This document shows positions 2,295-26,548 of a stretch of DNA of 35,209 nt, one piece after another. The notes below the pieces were generated by a model, which was given only the letters and a program-made list of their open reading frames with translations, did no database searches and had not been told where the DNA came from. The translations under genes were made by a program, and so were the position numbers. The stretch is from an uncultured Clostridia bacterium (GTDB lineage: Bacteria > Bacillota > Clostridia > Oscillospirales > Ruminococcaceae): NCBI GenBank assembly GCA_945873955.1, contig CAMCFA010000024.1, positions 1 through 35,209 on the forward strand. Reading direction: 5' to 3'. Each line of letters starts with the position of its first letter. The first letter of the stretch is position 1.

Positions 2295-2326
2295 CAGTTC
2301 AGAAAAAATTGTGCTACATATAGCAC
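2279..2326 (+). repeat. Leader module copy 1 (T-rich stretch plus palindrome)
   Basis: A 21-bp T-rich stretch at 2279-2299 is identical to 3365-3385, and both are followed 11-14 nt later by the GTGCTA palindrome. Here the stretch doubles as the T-run of the integrase terminator. At 3365 there is no hairpin before it, so the second copy looks like a duplicated fragment of this one. Confidence 0.7.
2311..2326 (+). promoter_or_regulatory. Palindromic operator-like site 1
   Basis: Exact GTGCTACATATAGCAC: a 6-bp inverted repeat GTGCTA/TAGCAC around CATA. It lies 22 nt before the start of the micropeptide gene, just upstream of its AAAAGAGG ribosome binding site. Confidence 0.8.
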
Positions 2327-2348
2327 CAGACACAGAAAAGAGGTAACC

Positions 2349-2420
2349 ATGAAAGCCTTTTTCAAAGAAATAACACGTCTGATAATCTATCTGCTGACTA
2401 AAAAGAAGATGGACTGGTAA
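2349..2420 (+). CDS. 23-residue basic, hydrophobic micropeptide
   Basis: ATG at 2349 follows AAAAGAGGTAACC, a good ribosome binding site, and the frame ends at TAA 2418-2420. The peptide begins MKAFFKEITRLIIYLLTKKK and ends MDW: a short hydrophobic stretch flanked by lysines, compatible with an amphipathic membrane-associated helix. It lies directly downstream of palindromic site 1 and 15 nt before the exonuclease gene, so it is probably the first cistron of that operon. Function is unknown. It could simply be a leader peptide that couples translation to the exonuclease gene. The evidence is the start context and position only. Confidence 0.5.
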   Translation: MKAFFKEITRLIIYLLTKKKMDW

Positions 2421-2435
2421 CATAAGGAGGTCGCA

Positions 2436-3359
2436 ATGAAAAGTGAAAGATGGAACAGTTCATCGTCCCTGCTGCTATCTAAGCAGGAATTCCGTGACGA
2501 GCTGAAAACCGAACGACAGTGGGCAAAAGCGGGCTTTCTCGCCTTGTCCGAGGACTGCGGAAAAAAGCTGCGTCCTACAAGCTGGTCTACTGGCTCGATT
2601 GATACACTCCCCCGCTATCTTCTTCCGGAGGAAGTCAGAACTGCGAGTGCAGATGAGCTGGCAGCATACTTTCAGCCGGAACGCGAACGAAAGGCAGCCA
2701 AAGCCGCAGAACGCAGAGCAAAACTCAGGATAGAGCGCGAAAGAGAAAAGGAACAGGCTCGATTACTCCGTGCAATGGCTGAGCAGCAGGACAAAGTTCA
2801 CACTATTGCACAATCCGTTGACCTGACTCCTGAAACATTTGGCGGTATCGTGATAGATACAGAAACAACTGGTCTGTACGCAGGAGAAGATGAAATATTG
2901 CAGCTCTCCATAATCAGCGAAAACGGAGAAAAGCTATTCGACAGTTATTTCCGTCCGCTGCATAAAACGTGGCAAGAAGCGCAAGCAGTAAATCATATAA
3001 CCCCGGAAATGGTGGCAGACGCACCGAGCATAGCTGATAGAGCTGCTGAAATCCAGCGGATAATAAACTCCGCAGATAAGATTATCGGCTACAACACATA
3101 TTTTGACGTGAATTTCATAAGCGCCGCCGGGCTGATTATCCCAGAGCGAGCAGAAATCATTGATATAATGCCCATGTTTGCGGAAATCTTCGGCGAATGG
3201 AGTGAGAGCCACGGTGATTACAAGTGGCAGAAGCTCACGACCTGCGCTGAGTACTTCCGTTTTGACTGGAGCAGCATGAAAGCTCATGACAGTCTTGCAG
3301 ACTGCTTTGCAACGCTGCATTGCTACAAGAAAATTATGACAAGCAAGACGAACGAGTAA
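2436..3359 (+). CDS. DEDDh 3'-5' exonuclease (DnaQ-like) with a coiled-coil N-terminal region
   Basis: Predicted 3'-5' exonuclease of the DNA polymerase III epsilon-like superfamily, 307 residues. The exonuclease domain spans about 135-302: ExoI motif with Asp141 and Glu143 (IDTETTGLY), ExoII around IIGYNTYFDVNFI with the conserved Asp, and ExoIII with His284 and Asp289 (HDSLAD), so all metal-binding residues are present. Residues about 75-125 are rich in Arg, Lys, Glu and Ala and look like a charged coiled coil. The first 75 residues are not recognised. The start follows ATAAGGAGGTCGC. Many Firmicutes elements carry such a nuclease; trimming or repair of transferred single-stranded DNA is an inference. 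No polymerase gene is nearby. It is probably co-transcribed with the upstream micropeptide from the site-1 leader. Confidence 0.88.
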   Translation: MKSERWNSSSSLLLSKQEFRDELKTERQWAKAGFLALSEDCGKKLRPTSWSTGSIDTLPRYLLPEEVRTASADELAAYFQPERERKAAKAAERRAKLRIEREREKEQARLLRAMAEQQDKVHTIAQSVDLTPETFGGIVIDTETTGLYAGEDEILQLSIISENGEKLFDSYFRPLHKTWQEAQAVNHITPEMVADAPSIADRAAEIQRIINSADKIIGYNTYFDVNFISAAGLIIPERAEIIDIMPMFAEIFGEWSESHGDYKWQKLTTCAEYFRFDWSSMKAHDSLADCFATLHCYKKIMTSKTNE

Positions 3360-3364
3360 ATCTA

Positions 3365-3410
3365 AGGGATTTTTCTTTTTCAGTTTTGAATAATGTGCTA
3401 CATATAGCAC
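3365..3410 (+). repeat. Leader module copy 2 (T-rich stretch plus palindrome)
   Basis: Positions 3365-3385 repeat 2279-2299 exactly and are followed by the palindrome at 3395. No hairpin precedes this T-run, so it does not look like a working terminator for the exonuclease gene. Confidence 0.7.
3395..3410 (+). promoter_or_regulatory. Palindromic operator-like site 2
   Basis: Exact GTGCTACATATAGCAC. Unlike most copies it lies far (121 nt) from the next start codon, at 3532, with hairpins in between. Confidence 0.8.
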
Positions 3411-3454
3411 AACAATTCCCTCTGCCACAGAGGTTCACATATATTTCTCCCTGA

Positions 3455-3478
3455 GAACGCAGCTTAACGGCTGCGTTC
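3455..3478 (+). other. Leader hairpin upstream of the XRE gene
   Basis: GAACGCAGC (3455-3463) pairs perfectly with GCTGCGTTC (3470-3478) around TTAACG. A weaker hairpin (CCCCT/AGGGG, 3491-3504) follows. The 5' arm shares GAACGCAGC with the second hairpin of the structured RNA at 7303-7359, but the rest of that architecture is not evident here. No T-run follows, so it is not a typical terminator. Confidence 0.55.
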
Positions 3479-3531
3479 GATGTCAACCCTCCCCTATCAA
3501 GGGGTAAAAAATAGTAAAGGAGCATTACACT

Positions 3532-3813
3532 ATGTTTGCAAACCGAACAAAATCAGGAAGAGCCAACATTGTTGGCATTAATATCGCCAGAATGCGAAAG
3601 CAGCTCAAACTCAGCCAGAGAGAGGTTGCCGACAGGCTTACGGCGATAGGTCTTACCATTGACAAAAACGCTATACAGCGCATGGAAAGCGGATCGCGCT
3701 TTATCACCGACATTGAGCTGATCTATATCGCAAAACTGTTCTCTGTTTCAGTTTCAGCTCTCTTCATCTATGAGCCTATTCCTGATGAAGTCAAGCTCAA
3801 CACAAATGAATAA
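3532..3813 (+). CDS. XRE-family DNA-binding regulator
   Basis: A 93-residue protein consisting almost entirely of one Cro/C1-type helix-turn-helix: NIARMRKQLKLSQREVADRL forms helices 1-2 and the turn, and DKNAIQRMESGSRFI the recognition helix (about residues 18-75). It ends in a short hydrophobic tail (SALFIYEPIPDEVKL). The start follows AAAGGAG. Small single-HTH proteins of this class act as dimers on palindromic operators and often control ICE gene switches (established for the class). It is therefore one candidate to bind the GTGCTACATATAGCAC sites, one of which (3395) lies in its own leader; this is inference. It is separated from both neighbours by structured leaders, so it may be monocistronic. 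Confidence 0.88.
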   Translation: MFANRTKSGRANIVGINIARMRKQLKLSQREVADRLTAIGLTIDKNAIQRMESGSRFITDIELIYIAKLFSVSVSALFIYEPIPDEVKLNTNE

Positions 3814-3844
3814 TTTTGGTTAATCGCTCTTCTGAGCTTTTAAC

Positions 3845-3905
3845 AGCACGGCAAGGGTAGCTCCCTAAAGGGCGGTTCTTCCTCTTTCACCGCCCTGCCC
3901 GTGCT
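3845..3905 (+). ncRNA. Candidate structured RNA, copy B (three-way junction)
   Basis: An outer helix AGCACGG (3845-3851)/CCGTGCT (3899-3905) encloses hairpin 1, AGGG (3854-3857)/CCCT (3863-3866) with pentaloop TAGCT, and hairpin 2, AGGGCGGT (3869-3876)/ACCGCCCT (3889-3896). The same order of helices, with pentaloop CAGCT and compensatory changes, occurs at 7303-7359. Both end 20-27 nt before a palindromic site and a start codon. I do not recognise the family. It may be a cis-acting leader or a small RNA. Confidence 0.55.
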
Positions 3906-3932
3906 TATATTACTTGAAAGAGGACTTACGTT

Positions 3933-3948
3933 GTGCTACATATAGCAC
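3933..3948 (+). promoter_or_regulatory. Palindromic operator-like site 3
   Basis: Exact GTGCTACATATAGCAC, 22 nt before the ATG at 3971 and followed by GGAAAGAAAGAGGT, which serves as ribosome binding site. A TTGAAA (3914-3919) lies 17 nt upstream of the TACATA inside the palindrome, so the site may overlap a TGC-extended -10 element. Confidence 0.8.
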
Positions 3949-3970
3949 GGAAAGAAAGAGGTAAATTATT

Positions 3971-4777
3971 ATGGCAGTTTCGTTGACTAAGAAGCCACTT
4001 ATGCGTGAGTACACTCCGGAACACATACGCAGCGAGGAGGAAACGCTCCCGCCAAAGCTCAAAGAATACACACCGGAACACATTGCGGTCGAGTCTGCAC
4101 CGCAGCCTTTAACTAAGAATTATAGCGTTGAAGATCCGGCTTGTTCCGGCTCAAACAATGTTGAAGTTATAAATTCTGATTTAACCGTTCTTGACAAAGA
4201 GCAGCTCTGCTGCATGATGAAAAACACTACAAATGAGATTTATGTTCTCTATAATAAAATCGAAAAACTGACCGCCGAAGCAGAACGCCGTGCAAAAGAC
4301 GATGGTTATTGGAATGAGAACTACTTTGGGAATGTAGGCTATTTCCATGAAAAGGTCGGTATAAAAATATCAAAAGCTCACCGAAGATATAAGCGCCGCC
4401 ACTTAATGGATTGGCTTACAATGGAAACGTTAAAAAAAATATCCGGGATAATCATTGCAATCTCAACAATCGTATTCTCGATGAATATTCTAATCACTTT
4501 TTTGAACAGAGATCCATATCCAGAAACGTCAGCAATAATGGAAGTAACCACAGGAACGATAAACAGCAAGGAGAGTTCCAACGGTCATTTTCACCTGTGG
4601 GTGGATACAGAAGCTGATTATGATGGCAAGAAACTTAATGCTCAAAAATGCTATTGTGTCCCCGAAGAAGTCTATCTAGCTGTTTCTGTTGGAGATAACT
4701 TTGACGGCAGCGAATACAAAGTCGAGAACTTATCCACCAGTAACATGGATATTTTTAGGGGCTGGATCAACAGATAA
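3971..4777 (+). CDS. Single-pass membrane protein of unknown function (A)
   Basis: 268 residues, family not recognised. The N-terminal cytoplasmic part contains two copies of EYTPEHI (residues 13-19 and 32-38), followed by a charged helical region (about 75-145) ending in the very basic KAHRRYKRRH. One transmembrane segment spans about 156-178, and a C-terminal domain of about 90 residues follows. The positive-inside rule places that domain outside the cell. The stretch HIAVESAPQP resembles HIAYEPAPQE in the membrane protein at 6924, and both proteins begin with MAV, suggesting a shared N-terminal sorting or interaction tag. It lies downstream of the structured RNA and site 3, with 20 nt to the next gene, so it heads a three-gene operon with the two regulators that follow. 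Confidence 0.75.
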   Translation: MAVSLTKKPLMREYTPEHIRSEEETLPPKLKEYTPEHIAVESAPQPLTKNYSVEDPACSGSNNVEVINSDLTVLDKEQLCCMMKNTTNEIYVLYNKIEKLTAEAERRAKDDGYWNENYFGNVGYFHEKVGIKISKAHRRYKRRHLMDWLTMETLKKISGIIIAISTIVFSMNILITFLNRDPYPETSAIMEVTTGTINSKESSNGHFHLWVDTEADYDGKKLNAQKCYCVPEEVYLAVSVGDNFDGSEYKVENLSTSNMDIFRGWINR

Positions 4778-4797
4778 TCAGAACGGAGGTAGCGGTA

Positions 4798-5328
4798 ATG
4801 ATTAATGAAAATAAATCGAAAGGAATTGCCTGCCCTTTCTGCGGGAAAAGCCCAGTTTATGGTACGTTCGTTACGTCATTCTATTATAGGAAAGAACACG
4901 AGTTGTTCGATAATGGCATAGGCATGGAATGTGCGAATTCTTTCACAGACTTATATGGCGAACCTATTGAGGAAATAACTAATCCGTCCATAAAGCTGAC
5001 AAGCTGCCGCTGTGCTTCTTGCGGAAAAAGGTGGTTATCCTGCGACTACACGCTTGTAAAAGACGAAAACGGTATCTACTCGTTTGAAAAACGGGATAAA
5101 ATATCCGAAAAAACCAAAAGCACAGTCTATGACCAGCTAATCAAACTCTGCAAAGAACGAGGAATAAAACCTTCACCATTACTGAGGTCTTTAGGACTAA
5201 GCGCTACGAACTTAAAGAGATGGCAGGACGGTTCAACAATTAATTCCGATATTCTTGAAAAGCTCGCCGAGTGCTTTGGAGTTTCTGTGAATTATTTCTT
5301 GGCAGATGATGAATTAAGGAGGACGTAA
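4798..5328 (+). CDS. Zinc-ribbon protein with C-terminal HTH
   Basis: 176 residues. The N-terminal part carries CPFCGKSP and CRCASCGKRW, four or five cysteines spaced as in a zinc ribbon. The C-terminal 65 residues form an XRE-like helix-turn-helix (LIKLCKERGIKPSPLLRSLG, then LSATNLKRWQDGS). That HTH resembles the third HTH of the 6081 protein (LIFLLEERGITKNKLLTDL), so the two are probably paralogous modules. The start follows AACGGAGGTAGCGGTA. The stop overlaps the next start by one base (TAATG), indicating translational coupling. A transcription regulator or a nucleic-acid-binding adaptor is likely; its target is unknown. Confidence 0.78.
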   Translation: MINENKSKGIACPFCGKSPVYGTFVTSFYYRKEHELFDNGIGMECANSFTDLYGEPIEEITNPSIKLTSCRCASCGKRWLSCDYTLVKDENGIYSFEKRDKISEKTKSTVYDQLIKLCKERGIKPSPLLRSLGLSATNLKRWQDGSTINSDILEKLAECFGVSVNYFLADDELRRT

Positions 5329-6038
5329 TGGAAGAATTATCTGAAATCAAGTCACTAGCGGAGTCAAATATCGGCTCTGAGTATCCATTAAATCTGCTGG
5401 ACGCAGTTGACAGCGATAACGTTTGGCAGTATCCAGTTCCTGCCGATATTAACGGAACAGTAGAATATCTCTTACATACATTTCTTTCTCAGAGAGAGAA
5501 CAATATTCTGCACCAGCGGTTTAAGCTGTGCAAAACATACGCAGAAATCGGCGAAATATATCAGATTACAGGGGAGCGAGTCCGCAAGATAGAGGAAAAA
5601 GCTCTGAACAGATTGCGTAGTCCGGGGTGTATGAAATACTTGCAAAATGGCATTTACAAAGCAACGCAAATAGATATAAACAATGCCGCTGAGCAGGCGG
5701 TTTCTGCGGAAATTTCAACCGCCGTTGCATATCTCAGAGAATTGCTCATTAACAAAACGAATTTCTTGGATGAACGTCCTGTTATAGTGACAGCAAAAAC
5801 AGAAATTGAGGATTTAAACTTATCCGTCCGCTGTTACAATTCCGTAAAACGTGCCGGAATAAATAAGGTCGGTGACCTTGAAAAAATCACGTTTCGGGAA
5901 TTACGGCTTATTCGCAATCTTGGCAAGCACTCCCTGGACGAACTTATTGGAAAACTCGCCGAACAAGGTGTTGCATTTCAAGAGGAAACAGACCCCGATG
6001 AAAAAATAGTGCTTCAAAGAGCGCCTATCATTGGCTAA
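5328..6038 (+). CDS. Fusion of a sigma-factor region 4-like HTH and an RNA polymerase alpha C-terminal-like domain
   Basis: 236 residues with two parts that recall RNA polymerase. Residues about 53-105 (LSQRENNILHQRF, then YAEIGEIYQITGERVRKIEE) match sigma-70 region 4, the helix-turn-helix that reads the -35 element. Residues about 157-212 (EDLNLSVRCYNSVKRAGI, then LRLIRNLGKHSLDELIGKL) match the helix-hairpin-helix alpha-CTD that binds UP elements and activators. Sigma regions 2 and 3 are absent, so it cannot act as a normal sigma factor. A role as an element-encoded activator or polymerase appropriator is inference. It overlaps the preceding gene by one base and is followed by site 4. Domain recognition is good; function is unproven. 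Confidence 0.8.
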   Translation: MEELSEIKSLAESNIGSEYPLNLLDAVDSDNVWQYPVPADINGTVEYLLHTFLSQRENNILHQRFKLCKTYAEIGEIYQITGERVRKIEEKALNRLRSPGCMKYLQNGIYKATQIDINNAAEQAVSAEISTAVAYLRELLINKTNFLDERPVIVTAKTEIEDLNLSVRCYNSVKRAGINKVGDLEKITFRELRLIRNLGKHSLDELIGKLAEQGVAFQEETDPDEKIVLQRAPIIG

Positions 6039-6049
6039 ATACGCGAAAT

Positions 6050-6065
6050 GTGCTACATATAGCAC
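6050..6065 (+). promoter_or_regulatory. Palindromic operator-like site 4
   Basis: Exact GTGCTACATATAGCAC, 15 nt before the ATG at 6081. The ribosome binding site GGAGGAAGG abuts the palindrome. TTGGCT (6031-6036) lies 17 nt upstream of the internal TACATA. Confidence 0.8.
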
Positions 6066-6080
6066 GGAGGAAGGAATACT

Positions 6081-6884
6081 ATGTCAAAACTTAAGTTTGG
6101 TGAGCGTATTCGAACCGTTCGCAAAAACGCAGGGTGTAGTCAAAAGGAGTTTTGCTCGTTTCTTGATATACCACAGTCAACGCTGTCAGCATACGAAACG
6201 GATAGAATGCAGCCGACTGTTGCTACTCTCGTACATATTGCGACAAAATTCAACGTATCACTCGATTGGCTTTGCGGCATTGACAAGCTGCACACAAGCA
6301 CTTATTTGGACAATAAGTCAATTGGGCTGCGAATAAAGGCGCTGCGCCTTGAGCGTGGGCTTACTCAATCCGATTTTGCTAAGTTGATTGGAAAGGCGCT
6401 CCGAACGGTTCAGAAATACGAGAAAGGCGAGATTGAAATCGCCCTATCAACAGCAAATGAAATCGCGCAGGCTATGGGCGTGTCCGCAGCCTATCTTCTC
6501 GGTAATGATGAACACACGGCAGCAGCTCCCCCACCTATGGTGTTTTACGACAAGCTCATTTTCCTTTTAGAAGAACGTGGTATAACCAAGAACAAGCTGC
6601 TGACGGACTTACATCTCAACAGGAACTCTTTCGGGAACTGGCAAAAGCAAGGCTCAAAGCCCAGAGCTGAAACGATGGAAAGGCTTGCGGAATACTTTGA
6701 GGTAACTCCCGAAAGCCTATCCAAAGACAACACAGAATTAAAATATCTTCCGACAGCAAGAAAATTTCTTGCGCTGGAAGCTCCGCCAACTATTAAGCTC
6801 AAAGGCAAGAATTTCACCGCAGAGATACCCGCTTACATTTTTAACGAGCTTATGTCGGTTCTTCTTGAAAAACTGAAAGACTGA
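6081..6884 (+). CDS. Regulator with three tandem XRE-type HTH domains
   Basis: 267 residues. HTH 1 spans about 6-66 (RIRTVRKNAGCSQKEFCSFL, then IPQSTLSAYETDRMQP). HTH 2 spans about 80-140 (RIKALRLERGLTQSDFAKLI, then ALRTVQKYEKGEIE). HTH 3 spans about 155-215 (LEERGITKNKLLTDL, then NSFGNWQKQGSKPRAETMER). The last 50 residues are a short tail. Single-HTH proteins are common, whereas three in one chain is unusual and could allow one molecule to bridge several operator half-sites. With site 4 directly before its own gene, it is a plausible binder of the element-wide palindrome (inference). The start follows CGGAGGAAGG. Monocistronic or co-transcribed with 6924. Confidence 0.85.
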   Translation: MSKLKFGERIRTVRKNAGCSQKEFCSFLDIPQSTLSAYETDRMQPTVATLVHIATKFNVSLDWLCGIDKLHTSTYLDNKSIGLRIKALRLERGLTQSDFAKLIGKALRTVQKYEKGEIEIALSTANEIAQAMGVSAAYLLGNDEHTAAAPPPMVFYDKLIFLLEERGITKNKLLTDLHLNRNSFGNWQKQGSKPRAETMERLAEYFEVTPESLSKDNTELKYLPTARKFLALEAPPTIKLKGKNFTAEIPAYIFNELMSVLLEKLKD

Positions 6885-6888
6885 AATT

Positions 6889-6904
6889 GTGCTACATATA
6901 GCAC
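6889..6904 (+). promoter_or_regulatory. Palindromic operator-like site 5
   Basis: Exact GTGCTACATATAGCAC, starting 4 nt after the stop of the triple-HTH gene and ending 19 nt before ATG 6924. The upstream flank CTGAAAGACTGAAATT is nearly identical to that of site 7 (7380). Confidence 0.8.
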
Positions 6905-6923
6905 GGCAAGAAAGAGGTATAAT

Positions 6924-7292
6924 ATGGCTGTCAATCTTGAAAAAGAAAGTATCCAGCGCAGCTCACTTTCTTCAGCGCCCGAAAAGCTGCCCAGCGACAC
7001 TACCAAACATATAGCTTACGAGCCTGCTCCTCAAGAACAGGGCGCTGATATTGATGTGTATGACCTGCTTTTTGTAGGCTTAATGAGTGCGTTATATATT
7101 CTTATAGGGCATTTCATGCCAGCACTTCTTGGACTGGCATTTCCAGATGCACTTGATGCAGAGGAGTGTGTGGCGTTTGTTAATGCCTGTCGTATATTAC
7201 TTATGTGGATTGGTTCTTTTGGTGTATTCATATCAGTTTGGTCTTACACTTACGAAAAAATTGTGACACATATAGCACGGAAAGAAAGATAA
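6924..7292 (+). CDS. Two-pass membrane protein of unknown function (B)
   Basis: 122 residues. An N-terminal cytoplasmic tail of about 42 residues contains HIAYEPAPQE, similar to protein A at 3971. Two transmembrane segments follow (about 45-70 and 86-108), with a short basic tail ending HIARKER. The ribosome binding site is AAAGAGG. The last ten codons are read straight through a degenerate copy of the palindrome (7263-7278), whose GTGACACATATAGCACGG encodes VTHIAR, so the stop probably moved into an older leader module. No family is recognised. A role next to the par genes or regulators cannot be assigned. Confidence 0.7.
   Translation: MAVNLEKESIQRSSLSSAPEKLPSDTTKHIAYEPAPQEQGADIDVYDLLFVGLMSALYILIGHFMPALLGLAFPDALDAEECVAFVNACRILLMWIGSFGVFISVWSYTYEKIVTHIARKER
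7263..7278 (+). promoter_or_regulatory. Palindromic site 6, degenerate
   Basis: GTGACACATATAGCAC differs from the consensus at two adjacent positions in the left arm (CT to AC), which breaks the dyad. It lies inside the 3' end of the membrane protein B gene. It retains the common downstream flank GGAAAGAAAGA, so it appears to be a decayed copy of the leader module. Confidence 0.65.
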
Positions 7293-7302
7293 CAGGCAAA
7301 TA

Positions 7303-7359
7303 ATCGGGATAAAGGCAGCTCCTTGAACGCAGCAACAGCCTGCTGTGTTCCGTCCCGAT
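7303..7359 (+). ncRNA. Candidate structured RNA, copy C (three-way junction)
   Basis: An outer helix ATCGGGA (7303-7309)/TCCCGAT (7353-7359) encloses hairpin 1, AAGG (7312-7315)/CCTT (7321-7324) with pentaloop CAGCT, and hairpin 2, GAACGCAGCA (7325-7334)/TGCTGTGTTC (7341-7350) with one G-U pair. The helix order matches 3845-3905, and hairpin 1 shows a G-C to A-U covariation with the same YAGCT loop. It lies between two palindromic sites in the leader of the par operon. Confidence 0.55.
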
Positions 7360-7379
7360 AAAACTGAAAGGCTGAAATT

Positions 7380-7395
7380 GTGCTACATATAGCAC
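7380..7395 (+). promoter_or_regulatory. Palindromic operator-like site 7
   Basis: Exact GTGCTACATATAGCAC, 20 nt before the parA ATG. It is followed by CGAAAGAAAGAGG, which supplies the ribosome binding site. The upstream flank matches that of site 5. Confidence 0.8.
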
Positions 7396-7415
7396 CGAAA
7401 GAAAGAGGAACAAAT

Positions 7416-8180
7416 ATGATTTCAATAGCAATGTACAACAATAAGGGCGGCGTCGGTAAAACCACCTCCGTAATTAACGTATCGCAGCAGCTTGCGCTAA
7501 AGGGCAAGACGGTACTGGTCGTTGACCTTGACGGTCAGGCGAACAGCTCACGCTTCTTCACGGACAGCCCGAAACCGGGACTTGCTCAAGCTCTGGTCAA
7601 GGACATGGTTGCTCCCGAAATAGCCAAGTGCAGCACCAGATACCCGAACATTGACATAATCACAGCTACGTCCGAACTGAACACAATTATTCCGGAGTTT
7701 GGCGCATTAGATGAGGAAGTCCAGTATAAGAGGGTCGAAAAAATATTTTCTTTTTCAGAAAAGCCGTGGTATGGCGGAAGAAAATACGACTATATGCTGA
7801 TAGATATGCCCCCGGCGCTCAATGCTCTAACAAAGACTATTCTCAGCACCAGCGATTATGTATTTGTACCTATCGAGCTGGGATTGTTCTCAATTCAAGG
7901 CATACCAACAGTCACGGACATAATCAGTCGCTGCGGAACAAAATTCGGCGGCTGCTTTGCAAACAGGTTTGATAAGGACAACCCCTCGGACGTGCAGCTC
8001 CTTGATATGCTGCGCAGCAACCTCGGCAAAAAAGCTATGGACAGCGTAATCCCATACAGCCGGGTAATTAAGAACTCGATAAATTTCAGCGTTTCCGCTG
8101 CGGAATATATGAACTGGACATCGGCGTCCGACAGCTTTAAAAAGCTGACAGATGAGATTCTGGAAAGGGTCGGTGAGTAA
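7416..8180 (+). CDS. parA: ParA/Soj-type partition ATPase
   Basis: 254 residues. The deviant Walker A motif NNKGGVGKTT (residues 8-17) follows immediately after the start, then VVDLDGQANSS and a Walker B-like YMLIDMPPAL, as in small chromosomal-type ParA proteins. ParA binds DNA non-specifically in its ATP form and with ParB segregates replicons. In ICEs it stabilises the excised or replicating form (established for the family). The ATG at 7416 is chosen because AAAGAGG lies 7-13 nt before it; an upstream GTG at 7380 would lie inside the palindrome. The stop is followed within two bases by the start of the membrane protein gene, and ParB lies one gene further, so this is a par operon under site 7. 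Confidence 0.93.
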   Translation: MISIAMYNNKGGVGKTTSVINVSQQLALKGKTVLVVDLDGQANSSRFFTDSPKPGLAQALVKDMVAPEIAKCSTRYPNIDIITATSELNTIIPEFGALDEEVQYKRVEKIFSFSEKPWYGGRKYDYMLIDMPPALNALTKTILSTSDYVFVPIELGLFSIQGIPTVTDIISRCGTKFGGCFANRFDKDNPSDVQLLDMLRSNLGKKAMDSVIPYSRVIKNSINFSVSAAEYMNWTSASDSFKKLTDEILERVGE

Positions 8181-8181
8181 T

Positions 8182-8796
8182 ATGTATATTAAGTATGCCG
8201 ACAGAAAAAAGATATGCGAAAAACTTGCCGCCTACCGTGTTGGCGAAATCGTTGCAGTTCTTACAGATACCGAATGTGAAGATGGCTTAATCGAAGCTCA
8301 AACTAAACTCACGATTACAAGTATCAAAATAAGAGATAACATATTTGTTCCTGAAATACTTGAAAATCAGCTGAGCAATTACGTTTCAGACTGTGACGAA
8401 TACAATTTCATATACACACTAACCCCTATCGACTCTACTCCGGCTGGGATTTATGATTTCAGCTCAAGCGAATTCGTAAGGGCTGACGAGTTTGTCGGCA
8501 AAGACTTTCACAGCATATACAGAGCAAAGGAAAAGAGAAGAAAAAGGGCTGCTGCTAAGTACTGGGGAAAAGTTGTCTTGCTTTTGGCAGCTGGGTTCAT
8601 ATCATACACGGCTATAATATCGCTCTTATTGTTACCGATATTTTGGATATGTGAGATACCTTTCTTCACAGCTCCTTTTCCGGCATTGGGTATAGCTTTT
8701 TTTGCAATGCTATTCTCAATGCTTAGTGAAAAAATCACAGGAACTTTTACAAAGCTCACAACAAACCACTGCATAGACAAAAGAAAGGACAGATAA
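8182..8796 (+). CDS. Membrane protein of unknown function inside the par operon
   Basis: 204 residues. A cytoplasmic N-terminal domain of about 120 residues is not recognised. A basic stretch (KEKRRKRAAAKYWGK) is followed by two or three hydrophobic segments (about 127-165 and 167-188), giving a membrane hairpin with a short charged tail. ATG 8182 is preferred over the in-frame upstream ATG at 8152 because GGTCGGTGAG lies just before it and the longer form would overlap parA by 29 nt. Its place between parA and parB, four nt before parB, is unusual for a partition locus. It might tether ParA/ParB or the element DNA to the membrane or to the mating channel, but this is speculation. Confidence 0.75.
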   Translation: MYIKYADRKKICEKLAAYRVGEIVAVLTDTECEDGLIEAQTKLTITSIKIRDNIFVPEILENQLSNYVSDCDEYNFIYTLTPIDSTPAGIYDFSSSEFVRADEFVGKDFHSIYRAKEKRRKRAAAKYWGKVVLLLAAGFISYTAIISLLLLPIFWICEIPFFTAPFPALGIAFFAMLFSMLSEKITGTFTKLTTNHCIDKRKDR

Positions 8797-8800
8797 AGGA

Positions 8801-9874
8801 ATGGGTAAGTTCACATTTAACACGTCAATAGGAATGGACATGAAAGCTGCGTCAGCCGACAGCTTTGTTGATAACATACAGATGATCGAATTTTCGGAAA
8901 TCAAGCAGAACAAGGACAATTTCTACACACTCTCGGAGCTGGAACTGCTGGCAGATGATATCGAACGTCAGGGACTTAAGCACAACCTTGTTGTGTGCAA
9001 GGACAGCGCCGGGTCTGGATACTGGCTCATCAGCGGACACCGGAGATACTCCGCCATTAAGCTGCTCATCGAGCAGAACAGGCTGAAAAGCACCCTTGTT
9101 CCCTGCTACGTTGACGGTGAACGCACTCAGGCTGAAGCGCGGCTTAACCTCATCATGCTGAACGCTACGCAGCGTAAATACACTGACGCCGAAACAATGG
9201 CAGAATATGAAATGCTCAAGCAAACCATTCAGCAGCTTGAGGACGAGGGCAAGCCCGTCAAGGGACGTATCCGCGATTTGATTGCTACAACGCTGAACAT
9301 ATCTCCCGCACAGGTCGGTAAGATTGAGAATATCAAGCACAATGCAATTGATGAGGTACACGAAGCCGTCAAGGATGGCAAAATGTCCATATCCACCGCA
9401 AACGAGGTGGCAAAGCTCACGCCGGAGAAGCAGCAGGAGATACTCACCAGAAAGCCAACCAGCGAAATCACTCACAAGGAAGTCAAGGAGATACAGAAAC
9501 AAACAGCGCCGAAACCGCAGAAATCAACAAATGAAATTCCGGACGAAACAGATGACGAGTCTGATACTGACGAGCCGGAATATATCAGACCGGACGTTAC
9601 CGAAGCTGCACCGTCCCCTGCTCCATCTGTTCCTGTTTTAGAAAAGAAGCCGGTATTCACGTCTGAAAAAAAGAACGAGAGCAAATCGGCTTCACCGGAT
9701 CTGAAAAAGATTACCGATACACTGGAGCTGACTGCGGTTGAGATTGCTGCACTTCATCAATATATTGATGACCTGTATAATAATCTTGATTGCGATGATG
9801 AAAACGAGGACACAATACTGGGCATAAGTATCAAAATTGACTGCTTTCTCACGAAACATGGAATTGAAACGTAA
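8801..9874 (+). CDS. parB: ParB/Spo0J-family partition protein
   Basis: 357 residues. The N-terminal ParB/sulfiredoxin-type domain (about 25-125) includes the phosphate-binding GHRR motif (LISGHRRYSAI, near residues 78-84), followed by a central helix-turn-helix region (about 150-215: RDLIATTLNISPAQVGKIEN). An acidic, proline-rich linker (about 230-300) leads to a C-terminal helical domain probably used for dimerisation. ParB spreads from centromere-like parS sites and stimulates ParA (established). No classical parS repeat was recognised in this window; the dispersed GTGCTA palindromes are one possible but unproven target. The start follows AAAGGA with tight spacing. Confidence 0.9.
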   Translation: MGKFTFNTSIGMDMKAASADSFVDNIQMIEFSEIKQNKDNFYTLSELELLADDIERQGLKHNLVVCKDSAGSGYWLISGHRRYSAIKLLIEQNRLKSTLVPCYVDGERTQAEARLNLIMLNATQRKYTDAETMAEYEMLKQTIQQLEDEGKPVKGRIRDLIATTLNISPAQVGKIENIKHNAIDEVHEAVKDGKMSISTANEVAKLTPEKQQEILTRKPTSEITHKEVKEIQKQTAPKPQKSTNEIPDETDDESDTDEPEYIRPDVTEAAPSPAPSVPVLEKKPVFTSEKKNESKSASPDLKKITDTLELTAVEIAALHQYIDDLYNNLDCDDENEDTILGISIKIDCFLTKHGIET

Positions 9875-9880
9875 GCGGTA

Positions 9881-11150: not shown

Positions 11151-11166
11151 GTGCTATATGTAGCAC
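11151..11166 (-). promoter_or_regulatory. Palindromic operator-like site 8, inverted orientation
   Basis: GTGCTATATGTAGCAC is the exact reverse complement of the other copies: arms are the same and the core CATA becomes TATG. It lies 23 nt before ATG 11190. The inverted copy argues for a DNA-level protein site. Confidence 0.8.
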
Positions 11167-11189: not shown

Positions 11190-11252
11190 ATGCCAATGTC
11201 GGACGAGCTTGCCGGCGCAACGCTCAATTACAGCCAAAAGCTATGGAGATAG
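11190..11252 (+). CDS. Short frame carrying the likely true start of the DUF3801 protein (frameshifted)
   Basis: ATG 11190 has a perfect site TAAGGAGGTAAACCT, and the 20-residue frame MPMSDELAGATLNYSQKLWR ends at TAG 11250-11252. The following gene starts at ATG 11243 in the -1 frame without any ribosome binding site. A -1 shift at CCAAAAG (11234-11240) would join NYSQK to AMEIAAELVK, giving a smooth helical N-terminus. It may be a programmed frameshift, a genuine mutation, a sequencing error in the AAAA run, or a coupling leader peptide. Confidence 0.55.
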   Translation: MPMSDELAGATLNYSQKLWR

Positions 11253-14726: not shown

Positions 14727-14742
14727 GTGCTACATATAGCAC
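14727..14742 (+). promoter_or_regulatory. Palindromic operator-like site 9
   Basis: Exact GTGCTACATATAGCAC, 5 nt after the coupling protein stop and 66 nt before the pilin-like gene. A related AT-rich string, TGTACATATATCA, lies at 14774-14786 between site and gene. Confidence 0.8.
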
Positions 14743-15267: not shown

Positions 15268-15303
15268 AGCTGTGCCTATGTGCTACATATAGCACAGCTT
15301 TTT
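15268..15303 (+). terminator. Terminator-like hairpin after the pilin gene, with a palindrome inside
   Basis: AGCTGTGC (15268-15275) pairs with GCACAGCT (15292-15299), extended by TAT/ATA, and is followed by five T residues (15299-15303). Palindromic site 10 (15280-15295) shares the 3' arm, so the two helices exclude each other in RNA. Confidence 0.75.
15280..15295 (+). promoter_or_regulatory. Palindromic operator-like site 10
   Basis: Exact GTGCTACATATAGCAC, 38 nt before the VirB6-like gene and embedded in a terminator hairpin. TTGAAA (15260-15265) lies 18 nt upstream of the internal TACATA. Confidence 0.8.
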
Positions 15304-18972: not shown

Positions 18973-18974
18973 CA

Positions 18975-21011: not shown

Positions 21012-21319
21012 GAAAATTCATCGACTACTTTATGAAAAAGAGCGTAAAGCAGCGGATATACCTGATTATCGGGTTTGTTCTGCTGCTTGTTCTATGCTTT
21101 TTTATAATAAAAGGCAACATTATCGACAACAATCAGTTGCCAAGTACCGCTGGCGAAATATCCAGCACAACAGTTGAAGCAAGCGCCGCTGAACCTCCGG
21201 ACACAACTTCGGCTATAACGTTTCGCATAAGTCTTTTTGACGTGCTGCCGCTTATTGCCGTATTCATTGCCTACGGGATACACAAGTTCCGTCAGGCAAA
21301 AAAGGAAAGGAGAAAATAA
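21008..21319 (+). CDS. Small two-pass membrane protein
   Basis: 103 residues, overlapping the preceding stop by ATGA. Two transmembrane segments (about 17-36 and 77-93) flank a Ser/Thr/Ala-rich loop (about 40-70), with basic ends (KKSVKQR at the start, KFRQAKKERRK at the end), so both ends are probably cytoplasmic with the loop outside. No family is recognised. Context places it in the transfer operon. Confidence 0.75.
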   Translation: MRKFIDYFMKKSVKQRIYLIIGFVLLLVLCFFIIKGNIIDNNQLPSTAGEISSTTVEASAAEPPDTTSAITFRISLFDVLPLIAVFIAYGIHKFRQAKKERRK

Positions 21320-21688
21320 ATGGCAAAATCTAATTCCAAAATCAGCAAGCTCCGGGAAAAAGCTGAACTGAAAGCCAACCAGCTCAAGGAGTGCAGCGAA
21401 AAAATCAAGAAAGCGAAAGAGGAGATGAAGGCTCTGAAAAAAGAGATAGCTGCTCTGGAACAGGAGATAAATTCGCTGGAGCTTATGCAGCTTTCTGAAA
21501 CTCTTAACAACAATGGCATTACTGCCGCAGATGTTGAAGCTGCTATTGCAGCTGGGCATATCAAGAAATCAGAACCGCCGCAGGAGCAGACTGAGCCGGA
21601 AAGTACAACAATACAACCGGAGAAGCCTGCGCAGGAAAACGGCGAAAACAGACAGGAGGTAAGCACTTATGAAGCTGGTAGTCGCTGA
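21320..21688 (+). CDS. DUF4315 family coiled-coil protein
   Basis: 122 residues. Residues about 5-60 form a strongly charged coiled coil (KAELKANQLKECSEKIKKAK), followed by LMQLSETLNNNGITAADVEA and a proline/glutamate-rich tail. This is the layout of DUF4315, a small protein found next to the VirB4/CD1108 and topoisomerase genes in Clostridia ICEs. Function is unknown; the coiled coil suggests oligomerisation. It starts directly after the previous stop (TAAATG) and overlaps the topoisomerase gene by 20 nt. Confidence 0.8.
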   Translation: MAKSNSKISKLREKAELKANQLKECSEKIKKAKEEMKALKKEIAALEQEINSLELMQLSETLNNNGITAADVEAAIAAGHIKKSEPPQEQTEPESTTIQPEKPAQENGENRQEVSTYEAGSR

Positions 21689-23795
21689 AAAACCGTCCGT
21701 GGCGCGTGATATTGCCGCTGTGATCGGAGCTGACGAAAAAACAGATGGCGTACTTAAAGGCAGCGGGTACATAGTCACCTCAGCTCGAGGACACCTTGTT
21801 CGGCTGAAATTTCCTAATGAGTATGACGAGCGCTATCAGAAATGGAAGCTCGATGATCTGCCGATCATGCCTGATTTTGAGTTCACCGTCATTTCCGGCG
21901 CAGAGGATTGCTTCGAGAGCCTTAAAAAGAATATGCTCAGTTCCGAGGTAGATGAGATAATCTGCGCGACTGACGCGGGGCGTGAGGGCGAGTGTATATT
22001 CCGGTATATTTACGACTTTATCGGCTGCACCAAGCCTGTGAAAAGACTTTGGATTTCATCGCTGACAGCGGAGAGCATACGGCAGGGCTTCAATAATCTG
22101 CTGCCCAGCTCCGAGAAAGACAGCGTATTCGCAGCCGGACTTGCCCGTAACAAGGTAGACTGGATATTCGGCATGAATATGTCACGTCTTTACTCGATTT
22201 ACTGTGGTGCAAAATGCTCCGTGGGCAGAGTTCAGACTGCTGTCGTGAACATGATAGTCCAGCGTGACAGGGAGATAGCAGCGTTCGTGAAAAAGCCGTA
22301 TTTCAGGCTGAAGCTGGAGAACGGCGCAGAATGGTTTGATGGTGACGAGGACAGCTTCTCGGAACGTAACGCAGCGGAAACAGTTAAGACTAAATGCGAA
22401 AATCAGGTTTGCACGGTGAAATCCGTGGATACAAAGCTGAAAAAAGAAAACCGTCCGCTGCTGTTTTCCCTGACCTCATTGCAGTCTGAAGCTAATGAGA
22501 AGCTGGGCTTTTCGGCGGCAAAAACGCTGGATATTATGCAAGGCTTATATGAAAAGAAGCTGCTGACATATCCCCGTACAGACAGTAACTACATTACCGA
22601 TGATATGGCTGCAAAGCTGGAGGGGCTTGTATCAAAACTGAGATTTTTTGATGAAGCCGCAGTCGATGAGCTGCTCATCACCGGATTGAACGTGGATAGT
22701 CGTGTTGTGAATAATGCAAAGGTAAGCGATCATCATGCAATACTCCCCACTGAAAATATCGACCACGCTGATAAGGTGGAGCTTTCCGCAGATGAAAAAG
22801 CTATCCTTGAAACGGTTATGAAGCGTTTCCTTGCGGTATTAAGCTCGGAATACCAGTACAACGAAACTGCTGTGATATTTGATGTAAACGGCGAAACATT
22901 CCGCTGCAAGTTCAAAGTCCCGGTCAAACTAGGCTGGAAAAAATTCTATCCCGGTCAGGACGAGGAAAACGGAAAAGCCGTAAATTACTCCGAGGGCGAG
23001 AGCTTTGAAACGAAAAATCTCTCAATATCGGAATGCGAAACTCAGCCGCCAAAGCACTTTACGGAAAGTACGCTGCTAAAGGCTATGGAAAACATAGACC
23101 GCCGTATTGAGGACAAGGAACTGAGCAGCTATGTATCTGAGCGCGGTCTGGGTACTCCTGCGACAAGAGCAGAGGTCATCGAGCGCATAATTTCAGTAGG
23201 GTATATCAGTCGAAACGGGAAATCGCTTACCGCCGAAGATAAGGGCTTTAAGCTGATTGATATATTGCCGGAGGAGGTCAAAAGCATTGAGATGACCGCC
23301 AGCATGGAGCAGCAGCTCTCCGCGATCGAGAACGGCAGCGAAACAGCCGATAATGTCGTAAATCAGATGGCGCAGAACGTGCGCCGCATTATCGAGCTTG
23401 AAGCCGGGCGGAAACACGTTTCACTTGCACCGCCGAAAATTTCCCTGGGAAAATGCCCGAAGTGCGGCGGCAGCGTGTATGAGTTCACCAAGAAAGGCAA
23501 CACGGTATTCTATTGCGAAAACTCTCCGAAAACCTGCTTTTTCCGGCTCTGGAGCGATGATTTATTCTGGAGTTCCAAAGGTAAGAAGCTCTCCTCAAGC
23601 ATAGTGAAATCTCTGCTTGCAAAGGGTAAAGTAAAGGTCAGCGGACTGAAAAGCGAAAAAACCGGAGGTACTTATGACGCGATTATTTCTTTCAAAGACT
23701 GGACAGACAAGAAGAACGATAAACCCAAAGTCGGCTTTAAAATAGAGTTCGATAACGATAAGCCGAAAGCCAAAAACAAAAAGAAAGGCGGCTAG
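21669..23795 (+). CDS. topB: DNA topoisomerase III (type IA)
   Basis: 708 residues. The N-terminal TOPRIM domain (MKLVVAEKPSVARDIAAVIG, then CATDAGREGECIFRYIYDF with its DxGREGE metal site) is followed by the catalytic region with active-site Tyr near residue 301 (LLTYPRTDSNYITDDM). A C-terminal zinc-binding part begins CPKCGGSVYEF and includes CENSPKTCFF. Type IA enzymes cut and pass single strands; ICE-encoded TopB is thought to resolve single-strand intermediates during transfer or plasmid-like replication (established for the family, inferred here). ATG 21669 follows ACAGGAGGTAAGC inside the preceding gene. Confidence 0.96.
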   Translation: MKLVVAEKPSVARDIAAVIGADEKTDGVLKGSGYIVTSARGHLVRLKFPNEYDERYQKWKLDDLPIMPDFEFTVISGAEDCFESLKKNMLSSEVDEIICATDAGREGECIFRYIYDFIGCTKPVKRLWISSLTAESIRQGFNNLLPSSEKDSVFAAGLARNKVDWIFGMNMSRLYSIYCGAKCSVGRVQTAVVNMIVQRDREIAAFVKKPYFRLKLENGAEWFDGDEDSFSERNAAETVKTKCENQVCTVKSVDTKLKKENRPLLFSLTSLQSEANEKLGFSAAKTLDIMQGLYEKKLLTYPRTDSNYITDDMAAKLEGLVSKLRFFDEAAVDELLITGLNVDSRVVNNAKVSDHHAILPTENIDHADKVELSADEKAILETVMKRFLAVLSSEYQYNETAVIFDVNGETFRCKFKVPVKLGWKKFYPGQDEENGKAVNYSEGESFETKNLSISECETQPPKHFTESTLLKAMENIDRRIEDKELSSYVSERGLGTPATRAEVIERIISVGYISRNGKSLTAEDKGFKLIDILPEEVKSIEMTASMEQQLSAIENGSETADNVVNQMAQNVRRIIELEAGRKHVSLAPPKISLGKCPKCGGSVYEFTKKGNTVFYCENSPKTCFFRLWSDDLFWSSKGKKLSSSIVKSLLAKGKVKVSGLKSEKTGGTYDAIISFKDWTDKKNDKPKVGFKIEFDNDKPKAKNKKKGG

Positions 23796-23798
23796 TAT

Positions 23799-26519
23799 AT
23801 GTATTTTTTCAGAGTTGAGTTAAGCAGCTTTGATGATGAAAAGAAAGTAATATTCCTCATTCCCGATCAGACGGATACGGACGAAAACGGCGCTCCGTTT
23901 CAGGAAAAGCTGCTGACTAATTCGCCCAAGTACAAGGAATTCGTTAAGGAAACCAAAACGTCTGTGGTTGATGTTTCCTACACCGTCTACGAAACTTCAG
24001 CTCCGATCACCGGGGAAATTACCGATGAATACTTTTCCCAGATGGAGCAGGACGGTGCGCTGATAGCCCATGACAGCAACGAGTTCAGCATAACCACCGG
24101 GAAAACGTCTAAATCCGGTGGTAAGAGCAATTTGAAAATGTATGCGATTTTCGGAGTAATCGCCGCTGTTTTCATTGGGCTTATAATTGCTTCAACCGCC
24201 GCGGGGAATGGTGGGAATACCGTATCCGAAACAACAGAAGCAACGTCTGAGGTCACTCAGGAAAGCAGTACAGCAGAATCTCTTGAACCCACCACAGATG
24301 TGATTATCGAACCGACTGCCGAATCATTACCGGAAACCTCCGAAAATTCCGGTTTTGTTGATACTCCACCTGAACAGACCACTGAGGAGGAAACTGCCCC
24401 GGCTGATACCTCCGAACCAGTCGAAGCGGTCAGCAGTTCAGGCGGTGCAGCAAGCAGCGGGAAGTCTGAATATACAATTTCATTCCATGCAAACGGCGGC
24501 GAGGGTACTTTGGACAGCATTTCCTCTGAACCCGGACAATATGTTGTGCTGCCCTCTGCTGAAAGCGCCGGGAAGATCCTCTCAAAACAGGGATATAAGC
24601 TGATAGGCTTTTCCGATAATGTTGAGATAAACTATCCTCTGTACGACTACAAAATGCCCTCCCGTGATATTACGCTTTATGCGGTATGGGAGCCTGAAAC
24701 ATATACCGTAACCTATAACAGCAACGGCGGTACAGGCACTCTTTCACGCACAGAGGTCAAATATGGAGATGACGTACCATTACCGACTGACGTTTCAATC
24801 TATAATGACGAGCTGATACTTGCGGGGTGGAATTCATCTTCCAAAGCCAAATCTGCGCTTAAATCCCTTACTATGCCGGCTGAGGATATAACTCTCTACG
24901 CTGTTTGGAGCGACAAAAAGCCGACTGCAACGGTTACGCTGCATTATGACGATAACATAATGGTTATGGAAAAGGAAATCGGCACTACGCTCAATATGCT
25001 GAACGATTTCGGCGTAACCAAAGAGGATTATATCGTAGCCGGGTGGTACTTTGACGGTTCGCCAAAGCGCATTGAATATCTGAGTGTTGACGGGGACTGT
25101 GACGTATATGCGAAATGGAAAAGTGCTACATATATCACAATTACCGTTGACCGCAGCTACCTCAATAAGCCTGCCGAAAAGTTCAAATTACCGCTTGATA
25201 TGACGGGTACTGCAAAGTTCACTACTCCGGCAGTAAATAACCCGGAGGATATTTATAACCATGTTTTCGGCTGTACCTACGGATTTTCAACTAAGCAGCC
25301 AACTGGTCAGTTTGGAACTATTGAGTATTACAGCGATACCGAATATGGATTTTCCAAAGATACAACCCTATACCGGGTGCTGAACAAGTACGGCGGCGGA
25401 AAGGGTACAGAGAAAAATCCGTATATCATTGACCGCTATGACCAGCTTATATACCTTGCTGAGAACGGGGCAAGCGGTTACTTTAAGCAGACCGCTGACA
25501 TAGTATTCCCTAATACGGCAGAAAGAAAGCCCATAAATACTCCGGTAATTTCAGTAGGTTATGAGAATAAATACTACAACCATTTTGTGTATGACGGGCA
25601 AAATTTCACCATAAAGGGACTGAAAGGCGAGGGCGGTCTGTTCGGAACGCTGGCAGCAAGCACGATAAAGAATGTCCGCATTACCGGAGCAAAAATCACC
25701 TCCGGCGGTAACAACTGCGGCGTTCTTGTGAATGAGGTTACTTCGTATGTCTTTGATGACGAAAGCAGCTCGAATAAATTCACTACCGGGAATACGCAGA
25801 TACTTAACTGCACCGTATCTGACAGCACGGTATCAGCAGACAAGAGTACCGATTTCATGGGCGGTATAGTCGGCTACGGCGGCATAATCAAAGACTGCTT
25901 TGCAAACTCGATAACACTAAAAGGCAACAGTTCCATTTCCGTTGCAGCAGCGGGTGGTATAGTAGGTAATGCCTGCACGGTCAAAGCCTGCCTTGCCAAT
26001 GGCGTGTCAGCCGACAGTTCGATCCTCTCCGCTGGAGGAATTGCTGGAACAGCATACGGCGTTGAACTGTATGAGAGCAGAGAAAAGGCAGATAAAATCG
26101 GCGGCAGCATTATCGGCTGCGGAGTGCGCACGTTCATTTCACGCGCCGAAAGCAGCGGTGGCATTGCCGGAACAACCACCTCTATAAACAATATGGCGTA
26201 TATAAAGAGCTGCTATGTCGCAAACATTGTGCTTAACGGCAAATACAATGGCAGCATTTCCGGCAGGGACGGAAACGAGAATTACCGCCACTCGATAGCA
26301 TACTGCATTGTAGATAACACGAATGGTTATAGCTTTATAGGCGGTGATAAGGTGCGCTCCGCAACTTCAACGATGGTTCTCAACGTTCCGGCAGACACAG
26401 GGTTGACAGTAGACGGTGTGCTTTCTGTACTCAACGCTTCCGGTAGCGGTTATTCCAGTTGGCAGCGCAGCAAGGATATTAACAGCGGGTATCCTTATCC
26501 CAGCGGTATCACATTCTAA
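23799..26519 (+). CDS. Surface protein with InlB-type B-repeats, anchored by an N-terminal membrane helix
   Basis: 906 residues, start 3 nt after the topB stop. A cytoplasmic N-terminal domain (about 1-110) leads to a transmembrane segment (about 113-133), then a Ser/Thr/Glu/Pro-rich stalk (about 135-215). Three Listeria-Bacteroides-type repeats follow (about 225-445), each ending in LYAVW or VYAKW and containing NGGEGTL or NGGTGTL. A linker leads to a C-terminal beta-helix-like region (about 520-890) with repeated GGI-type turns (GGIVGYGG, AGGIVGNA, AGGIAGTA, GGIAGTTT). The layout is that of an adhesin displayed outside the cell. Placed in the transfer operon, it may hold mating cells together (inference). 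An imperfect palindromic site (25123-25138) lies in the coding sequence. Confidence 0.85.
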   Translation: MYFFRVELSSFDDEKKVIFLIPDQTDTDENGAPFQEKLLTNSPKYKEFVKETKTSVVDVSYTVYETSAPITGEITDEYFSQMEQDGALIAHDSNEFSITTGKTSKSGGKSNLKMYAIFGVIAAVFIGLIIASTAAGNGGNTVSETTEATSEVTQESSTAESLEPTTDVIIEPTAESLPETSENSGFVDTPPEQTTEEETAPADTSEPVEAVSSSGGAASSGKSEYTISFHANGGEGTLDSISSEPGQYVVLPSAESAGKILSKQGYKLIGFSDNVEINYPLYDYKMPSRDITLYAVWEPETYTVTYNSNGGTGTLSRTEVKYGDDVPLPTDVSIYNDELILAGWNSSSKAKSALKSLTMPAEDITLYAVWSDKKPTATVTLHYDDNIMVMEKEIGTTLNMLNDFGVTKEDYIVAGWYFDGSPKRIEYLSVDGDCDVYAKWKSATYITITVDRSYLNKPAEKFKLPLDMTGTAKFTTPAVNNPEDIYNHVFGCTYGFSTKQPTGQFGTIEYYSDTEYGFSKDTTLYRVLNKYGGGKGTEKNPYIIDRYDQLIYLAENGASGYFKQTADIVFPNTAERKPINTPVISVGYENKYYNHFVYDGQNFTIKGLKGEGGLFGTLAASTIKNVRITGAKITSGGNNCGVLVNEVTSYVFDDESSSNKFTTGNTQILNCTVSDSTVSADKSTDFMGGIVGYGGIIKDCFANSITLKGNSSISVAAAGGIVGNACTVKACLANGVSADSSILSAGGIAGTAYGVELYESREKADKIGGSIIGCGVRTFISRAESSGGIAGTTTSINNMAYIKSCYVANIVLNGKYNGSISGRDGNENYRHSIAYCIVDNTNGYSFIGGDKVRSATSTMVLNVPADTGLTVDGVLSVLNASGSGYSSWQRSKDINSGYPYPSGITF
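25123..25138 (+). promoter_or_regulatory. Intragenic near-copy of the palindrome
   Basis: GTGCTACATATATCAC differs from the consensus at one position (G to T in the right arm). It lies within the surface protein gene, encoding part of SATYIT, far from any start codon. It may be chance or a silent remnant. Confidence 0.4.
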
Positions 26520-26532
26520 CTTACGGACAAAT

Positions 26533-26548
26533 GTGCTATATGTAGCAC
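26533..26548 (-). promoter_or_regulatory. Palindromic operator-like site 12, inverted orientation
   Basis: GTGCTATATGTAGCAC, the exact reverse complement of the main form and identical to site 8. It lies 24 nt before the ssb start. Confidence 0.8.

Follow-up and report, generated by a model that had tools for sequence, protein, structure and literature searches.

A 16-bp dyad repeated across a gut Clostridia integrative and conjugative element is a candidate operator of the element's own ParB

What reads a 16-bp palindrome that recurs in front of gene after gene of one mobile element? The question is raised by contig CAMCFA010000024.1 (assembly GCA_945873955.1) of an uncultured Clostridia bacterium of the Ruminococcaceae, whose analysed stretch of 35,209 nucleotides (nt) we call the window. 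It carries ten exact copies of the dyad GTGCTACATATAGCAC and two near copies (1 and 2 mismatches), and is most of an integrative and conjugative element (ICE). We propose that the dyad is probably the binding site of this ICE's own ParB, in an operator network like that of KorB whose specificity can be swapped. The first-pass annotation had listed the same twelve copies, which we reproduced, but had named three other regulators as binders. The genes led by the dyad may form a conjugation regulon, as it suggested, judging from their sequence. The sites in the window are the following.

2311..2326, + strand: exact dyad, 22 nt before the 23-codon open reading frame (ORF) 2349-2420
3395..3410, + strand: exact dyad, 121 nt before the XRE gene 3532
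3933..3948, + strand: exact dyad, 22 nt before the 268-residue gene 3971
6050..6065, + strand: exact dyad, 15 nt before the triple-XRE gene 6081
6889..6904, + strand: exact dyad, 19 nt before gene 6924
7263..7278, + strand: decayed dyad, 2 mismatches, in the 3'-terminal part of gene 6924-7292, with the usual purine-rich leader sequence behind it
7380..7395, + strand: exact dyad, 20 nt before parA
11151..11166, - strand: exact dyad as reverse complement, before the PcfB-like and type IV coupling protein operon, 23 nt from the ATG at 11190 (frame interrupted) and 76 nt from 11243
14727..14742, + strand: exact dyad, 66 nt before gene 14809
15280..15295, + strand: exact dyad, 38 nt before virB6 (15334; TrbL profile below cut-off)
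25123..25138, + strand: 1-mismatch copy within the reading frame 23799-26519
26533..26548, - strand: exact dyad as reverse complement, 24 nt before ssb (26573)

The rarity that the first-pass annotation ascribed to the motif was borne out: with up to three mismatches allowed, the window gave 23 matches (most sites count on both strands), against a mean of 0.18 and a maximum of 2 in 100 dinucleotide shuffles. All ten exact copies are noncoding, although noncoding DNA makes up only 1,296 of the 34,069 bases (3.8%) of the window's ICE part by our own gene list. Both near copies lie within reading frames, and the one at 25123 may be a chance match or a weak site. Seven of the ten exact dyads end 15-25 nt upstream of a start codon, as do 13% of noncoding positions (binomial P 7e-5, with starts taken from a simple self-made caller); the count falls to six if the PcfB start near 11190 is replaced by 11243. 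The earlier description needs correction for the copies at 3395 and 14727, which lie further from the next start; nor does the dyad at 2311 directly precede a regulator. Among relatives, 40 nonredundant leader sites from 32 stretches, chosen within 60 nt of a start, had a median spacing of 24 nt and an orientation of 28 forward to 12 reverse.

Three details of these leaders deserve mention. The 23-codon frame at 2349-2420, which follows the first dyad directly, is equipped with a ribosome-binding site of its own. The decayed dyad and purine-rich leader at 7263-7310 suggest that a gene once behind them has since been lost. From 11190, the PcfB-like frame runs 20 codons to a TAG and the gene body continues in another frame from about 11243, so that the break (11190-11252) is either a real interruption or an assembly error. 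We take gene 14809, which has no profile match, to be a Maff2-like pilin.

The sites go with the element. The last 55 window bases are identical to the first 55 of contig C67, and a 23-bp direct repeat at window 1141 recurs at C67:9866 as the 3' end of a tRNA-Gln gene. By this overlap and repeat, the ICE comes to about 43.9 kb (34,069 + 9,888 - 55 bases), sits in the tRNA-Gln gene and is covered for the most part by the window. The element carries an integrase (Phage_integrase), T4SS-DNA_transf, PrgI and a TraG P-loop in VirB4; by this gene content and the flanking repeats it is an ICE, its transfer being predicted. The backbone has the order of VirD4, VirB6, PrgI, VirB4, topoisomerase, ssb and helicase genes that we presume, as with the names PcfB and Maff2, to be that of Tn1549-like ICEs; it may differ from Tn1549 in having parAB with element-wide dyads. 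The whole genome (3.47 Mb, 172 contigs) has 15 exact dyads: ten in the window, two on C67, two on C54 and one on C87. Twelve therefore belong to this one ICE; of the rest, the two on C54 neighbour an excisionase-like gene and integrase, and the one on C87 a serine recombinase.

The genes that come into question as readers, with the left end of the element, are these.

1141..1163, no strand: ICE left attachment repeat of 23 bp, found again at C67:9866-9888 (tRNA-Gln 3' end)
5328..6038, + strand: fusion of sigma-70 region 4 with an RNA polymerase alpha C-terminal domain, rejected as dyad reader
6081..6884, + strand: triple-XRE protein, RstR family above cut-off, rejected as main reader
7416..8180, + strand: parA (AAA_31, Pfam E 1.1e-34), with its own dyad in the leader
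8801..9874, + strand: parB, proposed dyad reader, with a helix-turn-helix (HTH) recognition helix, SPAQ at residues 168-171

We searched for the candidate readers in 43 genomes of the genus, most of them draft or metagenome assemblies where apparent absence may reflect an assembly gap. Of these genomes, 16 carry the exact motif and 15 carry relatives of the window ParB (E 1e-20), at 19 loci in all. When recurrent dyads were sought de novo, a procedure that gave none in 20 Markov resamplings of 20 kb, a second 16-bp dyad, GTGTCACNNGTGACAC (T2), emerged in the related ICEs G001:C50 and G004:C2. A relative of the window ParB is encoded at each of the two loci, and T2 is present in five of the 43 genomes. 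A third type (T3), TTGCCA-YATA-TGGCAA, came from G025:C12 and G029:C29. When RGIG8838 is added to the 19 loci, 17 of the 20 ParB loci carry a 16-bp dyad of one of three types: 12 have T1 (GTGCTA-YAWA-TAGCAC), three T2 and two T3, all dyad types (T1-T6) having been defined on the same loci in which they were counted.

The predicted recognition helix changes along with the dyad. The 12 T1 ParBs and that of G038:C16 have S[PAS][AS]Q there, the three T2 ParBs SNGQ, both T3 ParBs and that of G026:C145 SKSQ, and that of G035:C52 SNVQ. In a tree of 20 sequences cut to 265 residues (G023:C17 and RGIG8838 being partial), the T2 and T3 ParBs formed supported clades (100/98 and 99/97), and the ParB of G012:C97, which has SSAQ and T1 sites, grouped with the T3 ParBs (99/98). 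Backbone genes are preceded by different types, PcfB and topoisomerase by T1 and T2 and VirB6 by T1, T2 and T3, and a large helicase ORF contains T1 and T3 sites in relatives. This co-variation suggests that ParB, and not the regulators suspected at first, reads the dyads.

A natural swap is found in G042, which has two ICEs, C16 and C20. Their parA genes are 98.8% identical, a small XRE 95% and XRE2 88%, while parB is only 64% identical. C20 carries three exact T1 dyads and no T2; C16 carries six T2 dyads and keeps one intact T1 before parA. In a homologous leader on C16 (L233 4180-4303) only the right half of a T1 dyad is left, apparently a site decaying after the change of ParB. Since the two ICEs share parA and both XREs yet differ in their dyads, these three genes are excluded as the determinant. 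The pair alone is no proof of ParB, because other right-half genes differ too.

The assignment of ParB itself comes from structure prediction and profiles. Its predicted fold, an N-domain plus HTH, matches Noc, ParB and KorB. A profile of 18 relatives matched ParB, Noc and Spo0J chains in the PDB (E 7e-7 to 1e-3), whereas the single window sequence gave no PDB match; NCBIfam PRTRC_parB scored 23 bits (cut-off 278.6). The motif SGHRR (residues 78-82), which we take to resemble the cytidine triphosphate (CTP) motif of ParB, is invariant in the 18 relatives. ParA, ParB and palindromic sites, which we infer to be cognate to ParB, stand on one element as in a parABS system, and the sites of about 16 bp dispersed near several operons, with a co-encoded ParA, resemble the KorB arrangement.

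To look beyond the genus, we searched 396 genomes of the family at E 1e-30, with the five best candidates scored per genome. ParB relatives occurred in 10 of them: three belong to this genus, the remaining seven to six others. Of 25 window proteins compared with 40 kb of one out-of-genus contig, G061:C34, only an exonuclease, ParA and ParB gave a match (E 1e-6). This contig has five TTGATA-CATA-TATCAA dyads (T4), of which three end 20-30 nt before starts and two lie inside parB. The dyad types fit a common scaffold, KTGNNA-N4-TNNCAM, which yielded 0.05 dyads on average in 40 Markov resamplings of the window.

Several observations weigh against ParB as the reader. Three ParB loci lack a recurrent dyad: G038:C16 (24 kb), which has one scaffold dyad, GTGACA-TTTG-TGTCAC, before its PcfB gene, and the short contigs G026:C145 and G035:C52. 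Conversely, G006, G011, G013, G033 and G037 have T1 sites and no ParB match at E 1e-20. Some T1 assignments have few sites (one 2-mismatch variant in G000:C2, one exact copy each in G021:C30 and G039:C94). Since SPAQ is found with T1, T4 and T6, specificity must depend on more than these four residues. Beyond the genus, only two of the seven ParB genomes (G061 and G333) have scaffold dyads; the three TTGACA dyads of G333:C29, which has a conjugation backbone, all lie inside reading frames, and no scaffold dyads were found in the fetched stretches of G221, G408, G147, G098 and G180, two of them short. These five ParBs speak against the generality of the proposal as well. The Pfam ParB_N score (19.6 bits) is under the curated cut-off of 26.3. 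The ParB model has a mean predicted local distance difference test score of 68.6, and its superposition on several matched chains is poor (12-14 A), which probably reflects a different placement of the two domains. Finally, leaders with at least 9 of 12 promoter consensus bases number 4 of 40 where 5.1 are expected. Most leaders thus have no recognisable promoter; read-through from upstream genes or weak promoters are possible at these leaders.

The regulators that the first-pass annotation put forward, XRE 3532, the zinc-ribbon/HTH protein 4798 and the triple-HTH protein 6081, do not follow the dyad in their distribution, whereas ParB, which it had not considered, does. XRE 3532 has no match (E<=0.001) in the dyad-bearing G009, G023 and G042. 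Relatives of 4798, matching by the C-terminal HTH part only, sit mostly on dyad-free contigs (exceptions G009:C11 and G019:C42). The triple-XRE repressor 6081 was for a time the best candidate, and 16-bp palindromes suit XRE dimers. Its five two-domain matches (about residues 3-153) are all on T1 contigs (G009:C8, G019:C2, G023:C3, G042:C16 and G042:C20), and relatives matching only its first domain (59-88% identical) are on contigs without T1. In a family-wide search (E 1e-30, best eight candidates per genome scored), 6081 and the motif pattern were found only in this genus among 126 sampled genera (297 genomes). That the dyads are operators of 6081 or another XRE or zinc-ribbon regulator is nevertheless improbable. 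No two-domain relative was found at the T1 and parAB loci L118 (7.5-kb contig), L138 (8-kb piece), L160, L240 and L243, the last in the window's own genome, where 6081 exists elsewhere. The G042 pair also counts against it, as XRE2 is 88% identical on both ICEs although the dyads differ and the site type does not follow the repressor, and the G061 element has no match to the XRE or zinc-ribbon proteins, yet carries dyads of the same scaffold. It is possible that 6081 is a co-regulator of the dyad-led genes. We consider it less unlikely, though still doubtful, that the dyads serve only as parS centromere sites for segregating the excised or replicating ICE, their place near genes reflecting intergenic space. 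The presence of parAB fits this, as do the sites inside the relatives' helicase ORF and the G061 parB, where parS sites can lie; but the spacing of 15-25 nt before starts exceeds the noncoding expectation in the window, and recurs in the relatives and with the T4 dyads of another genus.

Two further explanations are much weaker. RNA hairpins in the leaders could govern translation or mRNA stability, since each dyad, immediately ahead of the ribosome-binding site, can form a 6-bp stem closed by a 4-nt loop (-5.6 kcal/mol by itself); we regard this as very unlikely. The dyad of the PcfB leader is reversed in the window relative to its forward orientation in G009, G019 and G023, with a changed loop, and for that reason we favour recognition of DNA over RNA, as the first-pass annotation did. 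A second apparent flip, between gene 3971 and its G019/G023 counterpart, was dropped because only the first 27 residues match, so the argument is made from the PcfB leader. The orientation of the 40 leaders is a bias and no rule, sites also occur far from starts and inside ORFs, the types change with ParB, and no Rfam match was obtained at gathering scores. Less likely still is a special promoter whose -10 box would coincide in part with the dyad, an overlap that the first-pass annotation had suggested, and in whose reading the sigma-like protein 5328 might take part. TTGAAA or TTGGCT does lie 17-18 nt before TACATA at 3933, 6050 and 15280, but -35-like hexamers at that distance occur in 6 of 40 leaders where 5.3 are expected. 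In G042:C20 a consensus promoter (TTGACA-17-TATAAT) of a lipoprotein gene ends 14 nt before the dyad, contrary also to the claim that genes with their own promoter lack it. Protein 5328 has close orthologs (59-60%) in the three motif-richest relatives; as a reader it was rejected, as its relatives in G005:C7, G031:C10, G021:C51 and G019:C36 lie in stretches without a recurrent 16-bp dyad and G042:C20 retains only a 47-codon remnant. The stretches with this protein and without parAB also lack conjugation genes, and thus test 5328 only and are no control for an ICE without ParB. Its fusion of sigma-70 region 4 (E 2e-12) to an RNA polymerase alpha C-terminal domain (E 2e-19), with relatives in several dyad-free regions, would make it an unusual RNA-polymerase-directed regulator.

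We therefore return to ParB and propose the following mechanism. ParB dimers would bind the palindrome through the HTH, possibly with a role for CTP. Because the sites are element-wide and mostly 15-25 nt before starts (parA, regulators, the coupling-protein operon and ssb) or slightly further (pilin, VirB6), ParB would most likely act, like KorB of plasmid RK2, as an element-wide repressor that blocks transcription near its start. In G042:C20 the position of the promoter would place the dyad in the first transcribed bases. The dyad in the parA leader suggests autoregulation. ParB may besides serve the ParA-driven segregation of the excised circle, and the XRE and sigma-like proteins may partner it, by analogy with KorA and KorB. 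Related ICEs appear to have re-coded both the ParB helix and the dyad on the shared scaffold, so that ICEs in one cell could have separate circuits.

ParB-family regulators (KorB, VirB), the nucleoid occlusion factor Noc and regulating partition proteins (Omega) are already known. Noc and chromosomal ParB share the fold of the window ParB, and Noc has many dispersed sites; the system described here differs from Noc and its binding sites and from ParB/parS in being element-borne, linked to gene leaders and built on another site scaffold. KorB represses from 16-bp OB sites, which lie upstream of promoters at distances of 4-10 bp or 45 to >1,000 bp (PMC11790492). The window sites differ from those of RK2 (IncP) in their sequence, in lying mostly 15-25 nt before start codons and in belonging to an integrated gut Clostridia element, where repression is our proposal. 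Omega of the Firmicutes plasmid pSM19035 is a partition protein that binds sites overlapping the promoters of its own and copy-control genes (PMC9499535). Resembling the proposed ParB in this, it differs as a ribbon-helix-helix protein on heptad repeats, where here a ParB-type HTH would bind single 16-bp dyads across the element. Among the matches listed, the open-access literature held no clostridial ICE on which ParB and its operators form such a network, with site codes particular to each lineage.

The motif also occurs outside this ICE. A scan of genome contigs found it in at least 113 stretches, including single matches in unrelated taxa (marine Alphaproteobacteria and others) that we take as chance or unrelated, and 28 viral-contig stretches match. 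Dyads flank a two-gene module with a kinase that we assume, from sequence likeness, to be zeta-toxin-like (L231 6928-8110, L230 2044-2641, L237 2270-3688); L231 and L230, which also have relaxase-like genes, resemble the right ends of related ICEs. At other element ends, two or three tandem dyads, 38-48 bp start to start, precede an excisionase-like gene and integrase (L020 167-277, L242 1533-1586). T1 dyads lie beside a shared serine recombinase in L022 (2003) and L229 (6138-11012), the latter also with type I restriction-like genes; neither locus has a ParB match, and these elements are possibly plugged into an ICE's ParB.

To our knowledge, the regulation of such gut Firmicutes ICEs is poorly known. 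A wider reading, which we offer tentatively and hold at slightly below even likelihood, is that in gut Clostridia ICEs ParB doubles as a global transcription regulator, that lineages diverge as the recognition helix and a 16-bp operator 'barcode' are re-coded together, and that coexisting ICEs run insulated circuits. If so, the excisionase-integrase modules, toxin-antitoxin-like kinase genes and recombinase elements that bear this barcode would be plugged into the circuit or parasitic on it. Should ParB be the master regulator, a single protein whose site code can be read would link excision, transfer and segregation; operators would be predictable from sequence, the compatibility of coexisting ICEs would be testable by a helix swap, and the reach of KorB-like control would widen from plasmids of Proteobacteria to integrated elements in Clostridia.

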